DNA of 64,000 nt. Origin: Pseudocercospora fijiensis CIRAD86 (taxonomy: Eukaryota > Ascomycota > Dothideomycetes > Mycosphaerellales > Mycosphaerellaceae). Below the pieces are notes generated by a model. The model made no database searches. It was not told where the DNA came from and saw only the letters and a list, made by a program, of their open reading frames with translations. How positions within the stretch are numbered: position 1 is the first letter of the stretch; every line of letters starts with the position of its first letter. The stretch is from the NCBI RefSeq assembly GCF_000340215.1, contig NW_006921536.1:618843-682842 (forward strand). The letters are read 5' to 3'. A program made the position numbers and the translations under genes. Shown here piece after piece: positions 11,155-55,430 of this stretch.

Positions 11155-14100
11155 ATGTCTTGGATGCGCCAGCAACAGAATGACAGCTCCAACTACCTGA
11201 ACGGCAGTAACGCCAACCGACACCGCTTCGACTTCGACGACAGTAGCCCAGGCACAAGCGACGCCGAACGGAGCAGATCGCGCGACCCGCAAGGTTATGG
11301 CGGGTATGGAGCACCGACAGGCTTTAGGACGGGCGTAGCGAGGCTGGACAGGGGATATGCACAAAGAAAGAGTCGAGACTTCGATGCCAGCCAGAGTAGA
11401 AGCAGAAGCCGGAGCAGAAACAGAGCAGGAGCACGATATGGGACACAAGGAGGCCAAATTGAAGGTCAGTAGCGGTTGTTGTTGTTGCTTATTATACTTC
11501 CCCCTTGCTCGTTCGCAACTGCCTGGGGTTGCGACATGGGACCTGATAGAAGTCGCAAACCTCAATCCATTGTGTGCATTCGCTACACAATCGTAATGCT
11601 GTGCACACGAATGCACCATGACGATCTCCTCGCGACGCAAGAAGCGCATAAACCCGTGGGTCAAGGCGACTGACCTATGCGCAGACATACTTCGATTCAT
11701 CGAGCAGCGTTGGTCGTTCATGGCCGATGATAAATGCATACCAGTCAAAGTCGCCCTTCAGTTGATGGACAATTCGTCTCTCGGACTTGCACATCAGTAT
11801 AGCCAATTCCAGGAAGCCCACAAGCAACTCCAGAATGCGCTGAAGGTCATTGTCAATGAGCATCACCAAGGCTTCAACAGCAGTATCGGTACCTTCCACA
11901 AGATACAAGCCTCGATACATGCCTCGCAACAGAGACTACGAACGCTCAGATCGGGTCTGGTGCAAGCAAAGGGTAGCTTGGCAAGCGCGCGACCAGAGCT
12001 GAAAGCATTTGCCCAGAGTAGTCAGCAATATGACCAGATGCTGCTGGTGTTGGGCACCATCGAGCAACTACAGCAGGTGCCGGAAAAGCTGGAAGCACAA
12101 ATATCTGAAAAGCGCTTTCTCGGCGCTGTGGACACACTGCAGGAAGCATTAAAGCTTATAAGGAAACCAGACATGGAGGAGATCGGTGCGCTGAGCGACT
12201 TGCGAGTATATCTGAGCAATCAAGAGCACTCGTTGACGGACATTCTCGTGGAAGAGTTGCACAATCATCTCTATCTCAAAAGCCCGTACTGCGAAGAGAG
12301 GTGGAAAGCACACACGCGACGAGATGCCGCAACTGTTGACCACGATGAGAGCGAACGATCCATGTTCAGTTTCCTGGAGACATTTGATGCCTCGAAGCCA
12401 ATGTTGGAAGATACCACCAGGAATCCGGAGGCTGACACGTTCTACTACATTCAGCTTTTGCTGGAATCGCTCAACAAAATGAACCGCTTAGAGACCGCAG
12501 TGGACGAGATAGAACAACGCTTGCCTGTTGAGCTCTTTACAGTGGTAGAGAGGTCACATATGGAGGTCGAGCAACGGCATCCATCCCTCTTGCGAGCTGC
12601 GGCCAGAAGCCAGAAGAAAATGGGAGCTGGCGTGAACGCAGGCGCAGATGGCGAGAAGAAGGAAACGCTCGAAGATCTGCTCGTTACTCTCTTTGCGAAG
12701 TATGAAGCTATCGCTGAGGGGCATCGCGTCCTCCATGATGTGATAGCAGCAATCATCAAACGTGACGGCCATGAAGACGCTTCGACGCTAAATCGCAGTT
12801 TTCGGGAACTGTGGAAACTCCTCCAGAGTGAGATTCGATCGTTACTGCACGATCATCTGGCCACGAGTAACGATCTTGGTCAACGATCGAGACAAGAAAA
12901 CGATCCAAGTGCCAACATTTTCAGGCCGCAACCACGAGACCGATCACAAAAGCTCTTCAAAATGTCAGAAACTGATCAAAAGTCGACCGACTTGGCGACA
13001 GAGCGCGAGGACCTCGAGTCGATATTGAAGCAATCAGTGCCTGGTCTGGTCGGCAGCAATGCTCAAAATTCGAAACAGGACCAGAACACAATCACCGACA
13101 TATCTGCGACCGGACACAAACTTTTGGTTGAGCCCAGTGTTTTCAACATGGGAATTCTTCTCAAGCCCTCGCTCGACTTCTTGACACGATTACGAGAAGT
13201 CGTGCCTGTGAACTCTGGCGTCGTCCCAGGCACGCTGACATCGTTCCTTGACGACTTCCTCGTCAATGTCTTCTATCCACAACTTGACGAGACCTTACTC
13301 GAACTTTGCAGCCGGAGTATGACGGAAATGGACGCCTTCCAAGCAGATCCCAAGTGGCAACTGCATGCCCAAAGACCGATATTCAAAGGCACAACCCGCT
13401 TTTACGAGCTCATCGAGGCTTTCTGCGTCATGCTCGACAGCCTGCCTCATGATCAAAGTTTCAGTCAACTCATCGTGACGCAGATGCGGACATACTACGA
13501 CAAGTGCTATCAGTGGTCTAAGAGTCTGCTGCAACGCGCTCAACTAGAATCCGAAGGAGCTGCCAAATTGCGCCTGGCTGCGCAGTTCGCAACAAGCGGC
13601 GCGATCAACGAGACTGTCATCAAGCTGCTCAAAGCAGATGCGAAGGACACTGCGGTCCTTGCCGAAAAAGAGACTGCCTTGCTGTTGAACGAAATCAAGA
13701 AGCGTAGGCTAGAAGAAGCCGATCTCATCAATGATCGCAAAGCACTTGCAGCACTGTGCACTCTTCAAGTAAGCATGAAATGGCTTACTTCGAGATGCCA
13801 GCAGTTGCGATACATCAGTCCAAGGGCTGTCGATACAAGCAGCATGCAGTCGCATGACCGAAGAAGGTGGACCCAAAACTTCAACCTTGACAATGCACCA
13901 AGCGGGCCATATCTGCCACTGGACAAAGAGACCGCAGCTGGCTTCGATGCTGTGCTCGCATCCTTCACAGAACTGTCGTCTCTCATTCTTCGAACTTTAC
14001 ACGTTGATCTGCGGTTGCATCTGCTTCACGGAGTCTACACTGCTATGGACACAACATATGCCCTGGGTCAGCCATACAACGATCCAGACCCAGCAATCCT

Positions 14101-14500
14101 CAACTTGGCAGCATCTCTCGGTACCTACGACACCGCTATCTCCACCAATCTGCTTCATCCACAATACACCTTCTTAACAACTAAACTCGACGTCCTCGCA
14201 AACAACGCCCTAGTATCTCTCGTCGGCTGCATCCAAGCTCTCGACCACCACGGCCTAGAACGCATGGGCCTCAACATCCTCGTCCTCCAACAATCGCTCA
14301 AAACCAGCATGCAACAAGACGCAAGTCTAGAATTCGCCGCGAGATTCTACACACTCGGTGACGCCAGCACGATTGCGAAATCTGGGCCCGAGTACGGTTA
14401 TGCTAAGGAGGATCTGAAGTGTCTGACTCGACTTACGTGGGATCAAGATCGGGATAGTAAGGGAGGCACCCTGGATGAGGTTATCGCTAGCATTGGATGA
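11155..14500 (+). CDS. SEC8: SEC8, exocyst complex subunit (EXOC4)
   Basis: Exons 11155-11464 and 11685-14500 give 1041 residues. The 220-nt intron has donor GTCAGT, branch CTGAC and acceptor GCAG; joining makes codon GAC and the sequence IEDILRFIEQRW, which matches how Sec8 domains begin. Sec8 is a rod-like subunit of the octameric exocyst that tethers secretory vesicles at the plasma membrane, needed for hyphal tip growth. The diagnostic block follows the junction: VALQLMDNSSLGLAHQY and NEHHQGFNSSIGTFHKIQ, then a long alpha-helical body. The N-terminal 100 residues are Ser/Arg/Asn-rich and disordered, as in other Pezizomycotina. The intron is longer than most in the window but nothing else is odd. 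Confidence 0.93.
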
Positions 14501-15099
14501 GTAGTCCATGTTGAGGGATATCGATCGCAGGATTGTTTTGTAGGAAGGTCTTTGGCTGAGAGGTGTGGTGTTGGGACGACTGTGTAGCGTTACTGTAATG
14601 GCTGTTGCATGTAGGAGATAGTGGCATACAGAAATACCGCAATGGGTTTCCAGTGCAATTTGGTCATTTCTACACCAAGTTCAATGGACTATGAGGTGGA
14701 CACAAAATTTTCAAGATCCTATCATGTTGACTCAACAGCGCTGGACCAACAACTTCTCACTCACAACACCCACGAATACTATTTTAGTTCACACTACAGA
14801 TTCATACACATCCTTTCCCTACACACCCCTTGGCAAGAAGCAGCCTCCACCCCCATCATCTGCAGCCTCTAAAATTCCTTGGCGGCTCCCCACTGTGCAA
14901 AATTTCCAAAATCATTCACTCACCACGACACAAAGATAACAATTCTCGTTCGTGTCAAGAGTCTTCGATCGAATTTTTCACACGTCTTTGTCGTACACGC
15001 CCAGCTCTGACTTTCTGGTTGTTTTTGCAGCGGTTATATACAAAATGAGATTCACCATCGGCATCCAATCAGAGTTAGAACTTGGACTATCAACAGTAC
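14501..15099. other. Intergenic between SEC8 and the tRNA gene
   Basis: No credible ORF. A TTATATAC motif lies about 65 bp before the tRNA gene (near 15033-15040) but I cannot assign it a role. Confidence 0.5.
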
Positions 15100-15243
15100 G
15101 CCCTCTTAGCTCAGGGGTAGAGCGCGTCACTAGTACCTCTTGCATACACTGCAATCATATGACGAGGCCATTGGTTCGATTCCAGTATGTCTATTCCATG
15201 ACGAGGCGTTTGCAGTTACTAACACATGTACAGGTAGAGGGCA
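15100..15243 (+). tRNA. tRNA-Thr(AGU) with two introns, the second in the T-stem
   Basis: The acceptor strands GCCCTCT (15100-15106) and AGAGGGC (15236-15242) pair over all 7 bp, with discriminator A at 15243. The D-arm is GCTC/GAGC and the anticodon stem CGTCA/TGACG; the anticodon is AGT (15132-15134). Intron 1 (15136-15158, 23 nt) lies after position 37, the standard eukaryotic site. The B box GGTTCGATTCC is at 15173-15183. The T-stem is ATTGG with CCA at 15182-15184, but the last two bases (GT) and the acceptor strand resume only at 15234. The 49 nt between begin GTATGT, contain CTAAC and end ACAG. Removing both introns gives 36+26+10 = 72 nt, with every stem paired (one G-U in the T-stem). 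Because GT is repeated at the junction, intron 2 could equally be 15187-15235 with the same product. Identity and intron 1 are strong; excision of intron 2 is inferred. Confidence 0.85.
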
Positions 15244-15258
15244 CGGTTCAACTTTGAC

Positions 15259-15265
15259 TTTTTTT
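15259..15265 (+). terminator. RNA polymerase III T-run
   Basis: Seven T residues, 15 bp past the tRNA 3' end, fit a Pol III terminator. Its position supports the tRNA ending at 15243, beyond the second intron. Confidence 0.75.
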
Positions 15266-30513: not shown

Positions 30514-32115
30514 ATGATATACGAGGATTTGCGGGCGATTCACGAAGATGTGGAACGACTAGAGCAAGCAGTGGCAGAGCGCTCACTCGATGAGCCCAAG
30601 CACGTGAGTATATGATGAACTCCTAATATCCGCGACAGAGCTCACAACTCACAGATCCGCAGTCGGCTGATCCGCGACCATGAAATTTCCAATTTCCTTA
30701 ACCGTATTCAGACCCAGTCGCAGCGCGCAATCGAGATCTACGGCGATCCGCAATCGCGAACACAAGAGATTCAACAGCTTAGCACCGGCGACACATATGC
30801 CACCTTTTACGATGAGCTGAACAAGATCAAAGACTTCCACAAGCGATACCCGAATGAGCCTGTCGAGAACTTGGAGCGAGCGTACAAGAGACCAGAAGAT
30901 GGAGGGCCACCAGCAGGATTTGCGGGCGATATTGACACCATGTTCACTGGTGAAGAGGCGTTTGGACGATTCTTTGACCTGACGATGCTGCACGAGGAGT
31001 ATCTGAACTTGCCCGGTGTCAAGGGTGTGCGGAAGCTCACATACCTGCAATACCTGGATAGCTTCGATGCTTTTAGTCCTCCAAAATGCAACATCGTCCG
31101 ATCAGACAAGATGACAGATGTGTACTTCGCATACGTGGGATCGCTGGCACAATATCTGGAGTCCTTTTTGCGCCGGATAAAGCCACTAGAGGATCTCGAG
31201 AAGCTTTTCAAGGACTTCGATCAAGAGTTTGAGAAAGAGTGGGAGGAAGATAAGGTGCCAGGCTGGGAAGCAAGCAAATCGCAGATGAACGGCTCGGGAT
31301 CGAATGGGCCAACCACCGAAGGCACAGGCGAGGGTGTATGGTGTGCCGATTGCCAAAAAGAGTTCAACAACAACAACGTCTATCAGGCCCACTTGACGGG
31401 TAAGAAGCACAAGAAGAATGCTGAGGCGCGGCAAAACAAGGCCGAGGACGGTGACGTGGAAATGAGCAATGGCTCTGCGAAGTCCAACCCGACGGCACGA
31501 GTCAAAGAACGCGCTGTTGCCGAGCGAGAACATCGCATCCGTAAGCTGGCTGGAACGATGAAGACTGAGCGGGAAGACACACGCGTGAACGTGGAGCGGA
31601 AAGCAGGCATGACGGACAAGGAGCGTCAGCAAGAGCTGGAGGCTTTGTACAGGGAGGATGCTGAAGTTGCTGGCACTGCTGGCCAAGAAGAGGACGAGGA
31701 GGGCGAGGGTGGTGAAAAGATCTACAATCCGCTCAAGCTGCCTCTTGCATGGGATGGCAAGCCCATTCCGTTCTGGCTCTACAAGCTTCATGGTCTTGGT
31801 GTGGAATTTCCCTGCGAAATTTGCGGCAACTACGTTTACATGGGACGACGCGCATTCGACAAGCATTTCTCAGAGGCACGCCATATCTATGGCCTGCAGT
31901 GTCTGGGCATTGAGAAGAACACTGGCCTCTTCCGCGAGATCACCAAGATTGAGGAAGCGACGAAACTGTGGGAGAAGCTCGAGCGCGACCGTAAGGCTGA
32001 GCTCGATCGCAAAGGTGGTGACGATGGAGAGGGTGTTGTCGAGATGGAGGACACTGAGGGTAATGTCATGCCGAAGAAGGTCTACGACGATCTGGCGAAA
32101 TCTGGTTTCCTGTGA
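30514..32115 (+). CDS. PRP9: Splicing factor 3a subunit 3 (SF3a60 / Prp9)
   Basis: Exons 30514-30603 and 30655-32115 give 516 residues; the 51-nt intron (GTGAGT...CACAG) is phase 0. SF3a60/Prp9 is a core U2 snRNP protein needed for pre-spliceosome formation in the nucleus. The N-terminus (MIYEDLRAIHEDVERLEQA) is the conserved SF3a60 start. A U1-type C2H2 finger lies near residues 275-300 (WCADCQKEF ... HLTGKKHKK). The matrin-type C-terminal finger is near residues 430-455 (FPCEICGNYVYMGRRAFDKH ... RH), followed by the GLQCLGI-type end of the Prp9 domain. A charged Glu/Lys-rich linker separates the fingers. Start codon and family are secure. Confidence 0.95.
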
Positions 32116-55220: not shown

Positions 55221-55346
55221 TAAAGGTATATATTTTTAATATTTCCTATCTATTTTATCTTCTAGCTAGTTAGTCTAGTAGTATAATTCTTAGCTATAAA
55301 AGACATAGTTGCTAGGTATGCTATTAGAGTCCCCGCTCCTCGAGCT

Positions 55347-55430
55347 ATACTACCCTAGGTCGTTAAGAACTCTAAGGCGCTATAATCGATAGGGTCTAAG
55401 AGGTCGTAGGTTCAATTCCTATACTAGTTA
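55347..55430 (+). pseudogene. Damaged tRNA-Leu/Ser-like sequence
   Basis: Contains a D-arm/A-box-like segment (GGTCGTTAAGAACTCTAAGG), a B-box-like GGTTCAATTCC with a pairable T-stem (GTAGG/CCTAT), and the overall spacing of a class II tRNA. The acceptor strands no longer pair. C-to-T changes typical of RIP explain several mismatches. It may be a tRNA pseudogene or part of a repeat. Confidence 0.4.

Follow-up and report, generated by a model that had tools for sequence, protein, structure and literature searches.

Textbooks treat the splicing of transfer RNA (tRNA) and spliceosomal splicing as two distinct pathways, each with its own substrates, and the locus described here raises the question of how a tRNA gene could serve the cell when its T-stem is split by a segment resembling an intron of messenger RNA (mRNA). 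The gene lies in a 64-kb stretch of Pseudocercospora fijiensis CIRAD86 (contig NW_006921536.1), a fungus of a plant-pathogen genus, and this whole stretch, here called the window, is part of the 73.9-Mb assembly of 30 contigs that was searched. At window positions 15100-15243 (+ strand), a tRNA-Thr(AGU) gene (Thr1) is interrupted twice, by 23 nucleotides (nt) at 15136-15158 and by 49 nt at 15185-15233. Judged from its sequence, Thr1 is very probably a working nuclear gene carrying two introns of two kinds, and at least four further tRNA genes of the genome have a spliceosome-type insert like that in its T-stem.

The doubly interrupted tRNA-Thr gene

Removal of both inserts restores the cloverleaf, as the initial annotation had claimed with the same gene coordinates and boundaries (a 23-nt intron, then a segment between the exon end at 15184 and the restart at 15234). 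The acceptor then forms 7/7 pairs, the anticodon stem 5/5 and the T-stem 5/5 with one U-G, which gives 12/12 pairs for the T-stem and acceptor together. The Rfam tRNA model, through which the A and B boxes were recognised, matched only positions 7-64 of 71 and its match ended at 15187, a shortness at the 3' side that a displaced 3' acceptor strand would predict. The 49-nt segment does bear the fungal pre-mRNA intron pattern attributed to it earlier (GTATGT, ACTAAC, CAG), with the correction that GTA is present at both ends of the insert, so that four cut registers lead to an identical product and GT-AG is one of the four. The gene and its surroundings are laid out as follows:

15035-15040, +: upstream TATATA, 65 nt 5' of the tRNA start, a putative signal
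15065-15071, +: upstream CCAATCA, a putative signal
15100-15135, +: exon 1, with the acceptor 5' strand, D-arm, and anticodon stem and loop to position 37 (sequence and Rfam model; 36/36 identical in the second gene, Thr2)
15136-15158, +: intron 1, 23 nt, after position 37, the canonical site
15159-15184, +: exon 2, with position 38, anticodon stem 3' strand, variable loop, T-stem 5' strand, T-loop (B box) and T-stem 61-63 (Rfam model and fold)
15185-15233, +: intron 2, 49 nt, GTATGT...ACTAAC...CAG, between tRNA positions 63/64, with spliceosome-type signals
15218-15223, +: branch-site motif ACTAAC (RCTRAY) at intron offset 33, branch A at 15222, 11 nt before the intron end
15234-15243, +: exon 3, with T-stem 64-65, acceptor 3' strand and discriminator A
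15259-15265, +: T7 run, a putative Pol III-type (RNA polymerase III) terminator

The restored pairing was compared with chance by dinucleotide-shuffling the 150 nt behind the T-loop 20,000 times and allowing GT..AG excisions of 40-100 nt. For Thr1, 12/12 pairs were reached in 1/20,000 shuffles, and in 0/20,000 when the branch motif was also required. Similarly, the tRNA finder applied to the real window gave two hits with a score of at least 36 (42.5 and 38.5), both of them Thr1 and differing only in the cut point of the insert, and 10 shuffled windows yielded no hit with a score of at least 30. ARAGORN, run with the bacterial code over the 64-kb window, detected no tRNA.

Thr1 sits behind and outside the reading frame of the exocyst protein Sec8, which ends at 14500. 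This frame (11597-14500) is 95% identical to a protein of Pseudocercospora eumusae, the best of 1119 hits. Approximately 15 kb from Thr1, at 30619-32115, the window also holds a frame for the splicing factor SF3a60/Prp9 (Pfam), probably by coincidence.

Interrupted genes of four isotypes and the search for intact copies

The initial annotation covered one gene, and like signals were found in three further isotypes. The underlying census was an Rfam tRNA search that scored 63 of 3083 first-look candidates (at E<=0.001 it listed 32 matches, at E<=10 it listed 40), supplemented by a Thr-type pattern search and by fetched regions, which brought the nuclear tRNA genes read to 27 in total (L001-L005, L008-L013, L015-L022, L025-L028, the two Thr genes, Cys L033 and His L037). 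A GT-AG insert was found in 5/27, listed here with donor, branch motif (distance of the branch A from the 3' end in brackets) and acceptor:

Thr1 (AGU), window 15100-15243: 49 nt at 63/64; GTATGT, ACTAAC (11 nt), CAG
Thr2 (AGU), C12:699236: 52 nt at 63/64; GTAATC, GCTAAC (11 nt), CAG
His(GUG), C5:2956389: 51 nt at 61/62; GTATGT, GCTAAC (11 nt), CAG
Asp(GUC), visible core C2:2581720: 52 nt at 4/5; GTGAGT, ACTGAT (12 nt), AAG
Ser(GCU), visible core C4:273266: 60 nt at 10/11; GTTAGT, ACTAAT (13 nt), TAG

The five genes, 123-145 nt long with introns included, represent four isotypes and four insertion points. GT-AG ends occur in 5/5 inserts, with boundaries that are unique for His and Asp and shiftable for Thr and Ser, and 5/5 also carry an RCTRAY branch motif whose branch A lies 11-13 nt from the 3' end. 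The available part of PMC5832005 gives the same motif, 6-36 nt before the acceptor, as the fungal norm, and candidate mRNA introns from the same sequences (n=11, chosen by required donor, branch and acceptor motifs) had a median length of 58 and a median branch distance of 14. The donors of Thr1 and His (GTATGT) and of Asp (GTGAGT) fit GTRNGT, that of Ser (GTTAGT) does so partly and that of Thr2 (GTAATC) does not, while the acceptors of Thr1, Thr2 and His (CAG) and of Ser (TAG) fit YAG. The remaining 22 of the 27 genes match the Rfam model end to end, apart from Cys, which folds with no insert of this kind; among the 32 matches at E<=0.001, only L025 (model positions 5-66) and L028 (8-63) lack both model ends, and these are the Asp and Ser genes, respectively.

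Excision restored the stems of the other four genes as well. Thr2 regained 11/12 pairs and His 12/12, values equalled in 15/20,000 and 3/20,000 shuffles, respectively, and in 0/20,000 for either gene once the branch motif was required. The Asp insert splits TTCT from CATTAG and its removal raises the acceptor pairs from 3 to 7, and the Ser insert splits GGCACTTTGG from CGGAGTGG, with 2 pairs unexcised and 7 excised. For both, the best excision from a motif-free search is the same one that bears the splice motifs, and the Ser value was equalled in 8/20,000 shuffles, or in 0/20,000 with donor and branch motifs required. The sequence evidence for interrupted genes is thus strong for Thr, His and Ser and weaker for Asp, which is the least certain of the five spliceosome-type cases.

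According to the initial annotation, intact tRNA-Thr(AGU) genes elsewhere in the genome, together with an absence of reads that have the 49-nt segment removed, would point to a pseudogene. No intact gene was found: the joined 28-nt exon junction of an uninterrupted gene has no match anywhere in the contigs with up to 3 mismatches, the tolerance of all copy searches here, which are blind to more diverged copies and to sequence outside these contigs. A 25-nt pattern from the Thr 5' part gave three genome matches, namely Thr1, Thr2 and a Cys gene, so that the genome yielded no Thr(AGU) 5' half beyond these two interrupted genes. The 43-nt His core, the 40-nt Asp core and the 33-nt Ser(GCU) core matched once each. 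Since His codons, Asp codons and AGY serine codons depend on these tRNAs, which should be indispensable, and since the search gave no copy free of the insert, removal of the inserts is most likely. The Thr pattern had no match in viral or prokaryote collections and the His pattern none in the viral collection, as expected.

The two Thr genes are identical at 36/36 positions of exon 1, 22/26 of exon 2 and 9/10 of exon 3, and share 15/23 columns in intron 1 and 39/54 in intron 2. Within the T-stem, pair 52-62 is altered on both sides (G-C to A-U), and pair 50-64, which spans the intron, is still paired. Unexpectedly, the likeness reaches past the terminator run, with 49/63 columns shared over 60 nt downstream (from 15244 in Thr1) and 36/67 over 60 nt upstream. 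A third Thr relative, at C12:707748-707917, shows 84% identity to Thr2 over the variable loop, T-arm, intron and downstream sequence. No Thr-type A box was present there with up to 2 mismatches, the 5' half being unmatched, and this relative could be a truncated copy or else a different isoacceptor that shares the intron.

Several tRNA-like loci were set aside by judgement, as mitochondrial-looking (L006, L007, L014) or as repeat-like (L023, L024, L029, L030, C20:240640 and window 55264). On the longest contig, clusters of mitochondrial-looking tRNAs, likewise so judged, at C1:2533484 and C1:2534664 may stem from mitochondrial DNA inserted into the nuclear genome or from sequence joined wrongly. 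The 167-nt tRNA-like element at window 55264-55430, with a long insert and 35.5 bits, is probably a repeat and not a gene, since a near copy with similar flanks lies at C20:240640. L023 and L024 (1501-1660) each hold a copy of one tRNA-like 160-mer, which has the anticodon ATT and an insert of 88 nt; in L024, finder hits recur at a spacing of 156 nt, suggestive of a tandem repeat. Finally, the B-box pattern GGTTCGATTC was rejected as a tRNA census: it gave 404 matches against 44 for the reversed control, but the finder returned a tRNA at 0/30 of the places read, and 22/30 of these fall in two recurrent repeat families.

Probable transcription and removal of the inserts, and rival explanations

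The A and B boxes and the downstream T7 run (15259-15265) reported for Thr1 in the initial annotation are present, and the signals around all five genes fit transcription by Pol III. In 5/5 interrupted genes and in 11/22 ordinary tRNA genes of this genome, CCAAT stands in the 60 nt that precede the inferred start, compared to 776/20,000 random 60-mers of the window; in Asp and Ser it lies 18 nt before the tRNA start, though only when the intron is accepted. TTTT occurs inside 0/5 interrupted genes and 7-25 nt behind each of the five, and 17/22 ordinary tRNA genes have it within 45 nt downstream. The B-box TTCGA is readable in all five genes. The unspliced A box of Ser takes its TAG from the final bases of the intron, which leaves the internal promoter readable.

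The probable course of events is that Pol III, directed by the A and B boxes inside the gene, reads Thr1 as far as the T7 run and that the 49-nt T-stem insert, which would be an ordinary short U2-type spliceosomal intron, is then taken out by the spliceosome. End trimming would follow, after which the tRNA endonuclease and ligase would remove the 23-nt anticodon-loop intron (where a gene has one), and CCA addition would be the final step. The spliceosomal step is placed before end trimming and before the anticodon intron cut because RNase P, tRNase Z and T-arm modification require a formed acceptor and T-stem. The same spliceosomal route probably serves Thr2, His(GUG), Ser(GCU) and, with the least certainty, Asp(GUC). 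As far as the sequences indicate, it is likely that this fungal lineage admitted mRNA-type introns to essential low-copy tRNA genes at scattered positions, that the spliceosome is required for the Pol III transcripts of Thr(AGU), His, Asp and Ser(GCU), and that pre-tRNA-Thr needs two unrelated splicing machines in order.

A number of observations weigh against this interpretation. The evidence is the DNA sequence of one genome, the census scored 63 of 3083 first-look candidates, and eight listed matches lie outside the genes read (C4:6157299, C3:5715126, C10:802273, C2:2960451, C5:3002013, C3:3869372, C10:1124853 and C1:9140851). Thr2 combines a weak donor with a T-T mismatch at 5-68 of the acceptor, the Asp acceptor AAG departs from YAG, and Asp and Ser would each have a very short 5' exon. 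Shuffled intron cores retained RCTRAY in range in 79 to 276 of 5000 cases, but in the resulting five-gene product of ~1e-7 the Asp and Ser motifs are not an independent draw, since their boundaries were first spotted by eye via GT, branch and AG. For these two genes the shuffle test on excisions (Ser 8 and Asp 230 of 20,000) is consequently fairer, and for Asp it was passed far less clearly without splice motifs than with donor and branch motifs (2/20,000). The absence of T-runs is a weak argument, as 8/11 candidate mRNA introns are also without TTTT; with only 11 such introns, 3 of them containing TTTT, depletion of T-runs was rejected as proof of Pol III transcription. Moreover, the two U6 small nuclear RNA (snRNA) genes (C5:4776035 and C9:2205067) match model positions 1-105 in 110 nt and are apparently intron-free, so the usual example of a Pol III intron is absent here.

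The initial annotation had left three options, a tolerated spliceosomal intron, removal by another enzyme or a dead copy. The first is now the best supported, and the last has become unlikely. Were the interrupted genes pseudogenes and the tRNAs provided by intact genes, the acceptor mismatch and weak donor of Thr2 would be readily understood, as would the third relative on C12, which seems to be without the Thr 5' half. This is nevertheless very improbable, given that neither an intact Thr junction nor a second His, Asp or Ser(GCU) core was found in the contigs with up to 3 mismatches, that Thr1 and His regain all 12 pairs, and that the T-stem change between the Thr copies is two-sided. We consider it just as improbable that the tRNA splicing endonuclease, or a relative, cuts the inserts at bulge-helix-bulge-like folds, as in Archaea and the red alga Cyanidioschyzon merolae, with the GT-AG and branch motifs arising by chance. 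Nuclear tRNA introns in the D-, anticodon and T-arms are known in C. merolae, according to the accessible text of PMC9602550, and the His junction permits 4/4 central helix pairs of the fold (3-nt bulge, 4-bp helix, 3-nt bulge). The other four genes, however, permit only 3/4, and since four canonical anticodon-loop introns taken as control also reach 3/4, this fold test does not discriminate; the occurrence of GT-AG together with RCTRAY 11-13 nt from the end in 5/5 inserts would then be left to coincidence.

A third alternative differs from the spliceosomal interpretation of Pol III transcripts only in the polymerase: the loci could be read by RNA polymerase II (Pol II) in longer transcripts and spliced there, the tRNA being released afterwards. 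Spliceosomes normally work on Pol II RNA, which speaks for this possibility. Against it stand the runs of at least four T found 7-25 nt behind all five genes and inside none, the upstream CCAAT in 5/5, as in 11/22 ordinary tRNA genes here, and the position of Thr1 behind, not within, the Sec8 frame ending at 14500. It is therefore regarded as unlikely, if slightly less so than the other two.

If spliceosomal removal from Pol III transcripts is correct, essential spliceosome-dependent tRNA genes would break the separation of the two splicing pathways, and the spliceosome would be able to act on genes of 123-145 nt with very short outer exons. The codons read by the Thr(AGU), His, Asp and Ser(GCU) tRNAs would depend on the spliceosome, and splicing capacity could couple to translation. 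The tRNAs of related fungi could also be annotated as missing or as pseudogenes, since the non-canonical intron search of tRNAscan-SE 2.0 is described for archaeal tRNAs in the available part of PMC8450103. As tRNA structure reveals the exon bases, such genes would furthermore allow intron gain to be studied cleanly.

Possible origin and comparison with known systems

The origin of the inserts was considered in the light of introner-like elements, a recent multiplication of spliceosomal introns that Dothideomycetes hold according to the accessible text of PMC4457414, in which P. fijiensis served as a negative control. The likeness is one of class, Dothideomycetes including Pseudocercospora. 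An introner-like element with many near-identical copies was rejected for the Thr genes, as the Thr1 and Thr2 regions each match only three genome places, itself included; the His, Asp and Ser introns lay outside this search. In contrast to introner-like elements, the five tRNA introns are without a common stable fold (z-scores of 1.56, 0.98, -0.13, -2.01 and -1.42 for Thr1, Thr2, His, Asp and Ser, respectively). Tandem duplication was likewise rejected as the origin of the Thr intron. A 10-nt stretch of the Thr1 intron, ATGACGAGGC, repeats sequence of the anticodon 3' strand and variable loop, which 8/2000 shuffles reach, but ten such tests were made (five introns in two orientations), Thr2 shares only 7 nt (924/2000 shuffles) and the other three introns show nothing. 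The 10-nt duplication is a weak lead to the origin of the Thr1 intron.

Interruptions of tRNA genes outside 37/38, several per gene and in the D- and T-arms, are known from C. merolae, the nucleomorph of Guillardia theta and Archaea. In the available parts of PMC9602550, PMC4090602 and PMC3978253, these ectopic introns are tied to bulge-helix-bulge cutting or to unknown removal, with no GT-AG or branch signals described, and the word stem "spliceosom" has 0 occurrences in the accessible text of PMC4090602, PMC4033280 and PMC8450103. PMC9602550, in the part available, presumes that C. merolae loses its D- and T-arm introns ahead of the anticodon intron, which is the order proposed here. A literature search found no report of tRNA genes with spliceosomal introns, most subscription papers being outside its reach, and hence gives no proof of novelty.

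Parallels exist among other stable RNAs. Nuclear ribosomal RNA (rRNA) genes of fungi hold mRNA-type introns, and the resemblance to the present case is that the stable RNA so interrupted comes from a polymerase other than Pol II; the difference is that the host is an RNA polymerase I transcript and not a tRNA. A title of 1993, cited within the available part of PMC11782384, deals with 18S ribosomal DNA. A further likeness is to the introns of fungal U6 snRNA, itself a Pol III product, and U3 small nucleolar RNA, where GT-AG ends and RCTRAY branch sites likewise occur in small structured RNAs. According to the accessible text of PMC5832005, frequent interruption by an intron is known for no small structured RNAs other than U3 and U6. 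In contrast to these, the hosts described here are tRNA genes of four isotypes with four insertion positions, and the Thr genes bear an anticodon-loop intron in addition. The spliceosomal introns of U6, U3 and rRNA genes are precedents for the tRNA genes described here, whose other neighbours are the ectopic tRNA introns of a red alga, nucleomorphs and Archaea.
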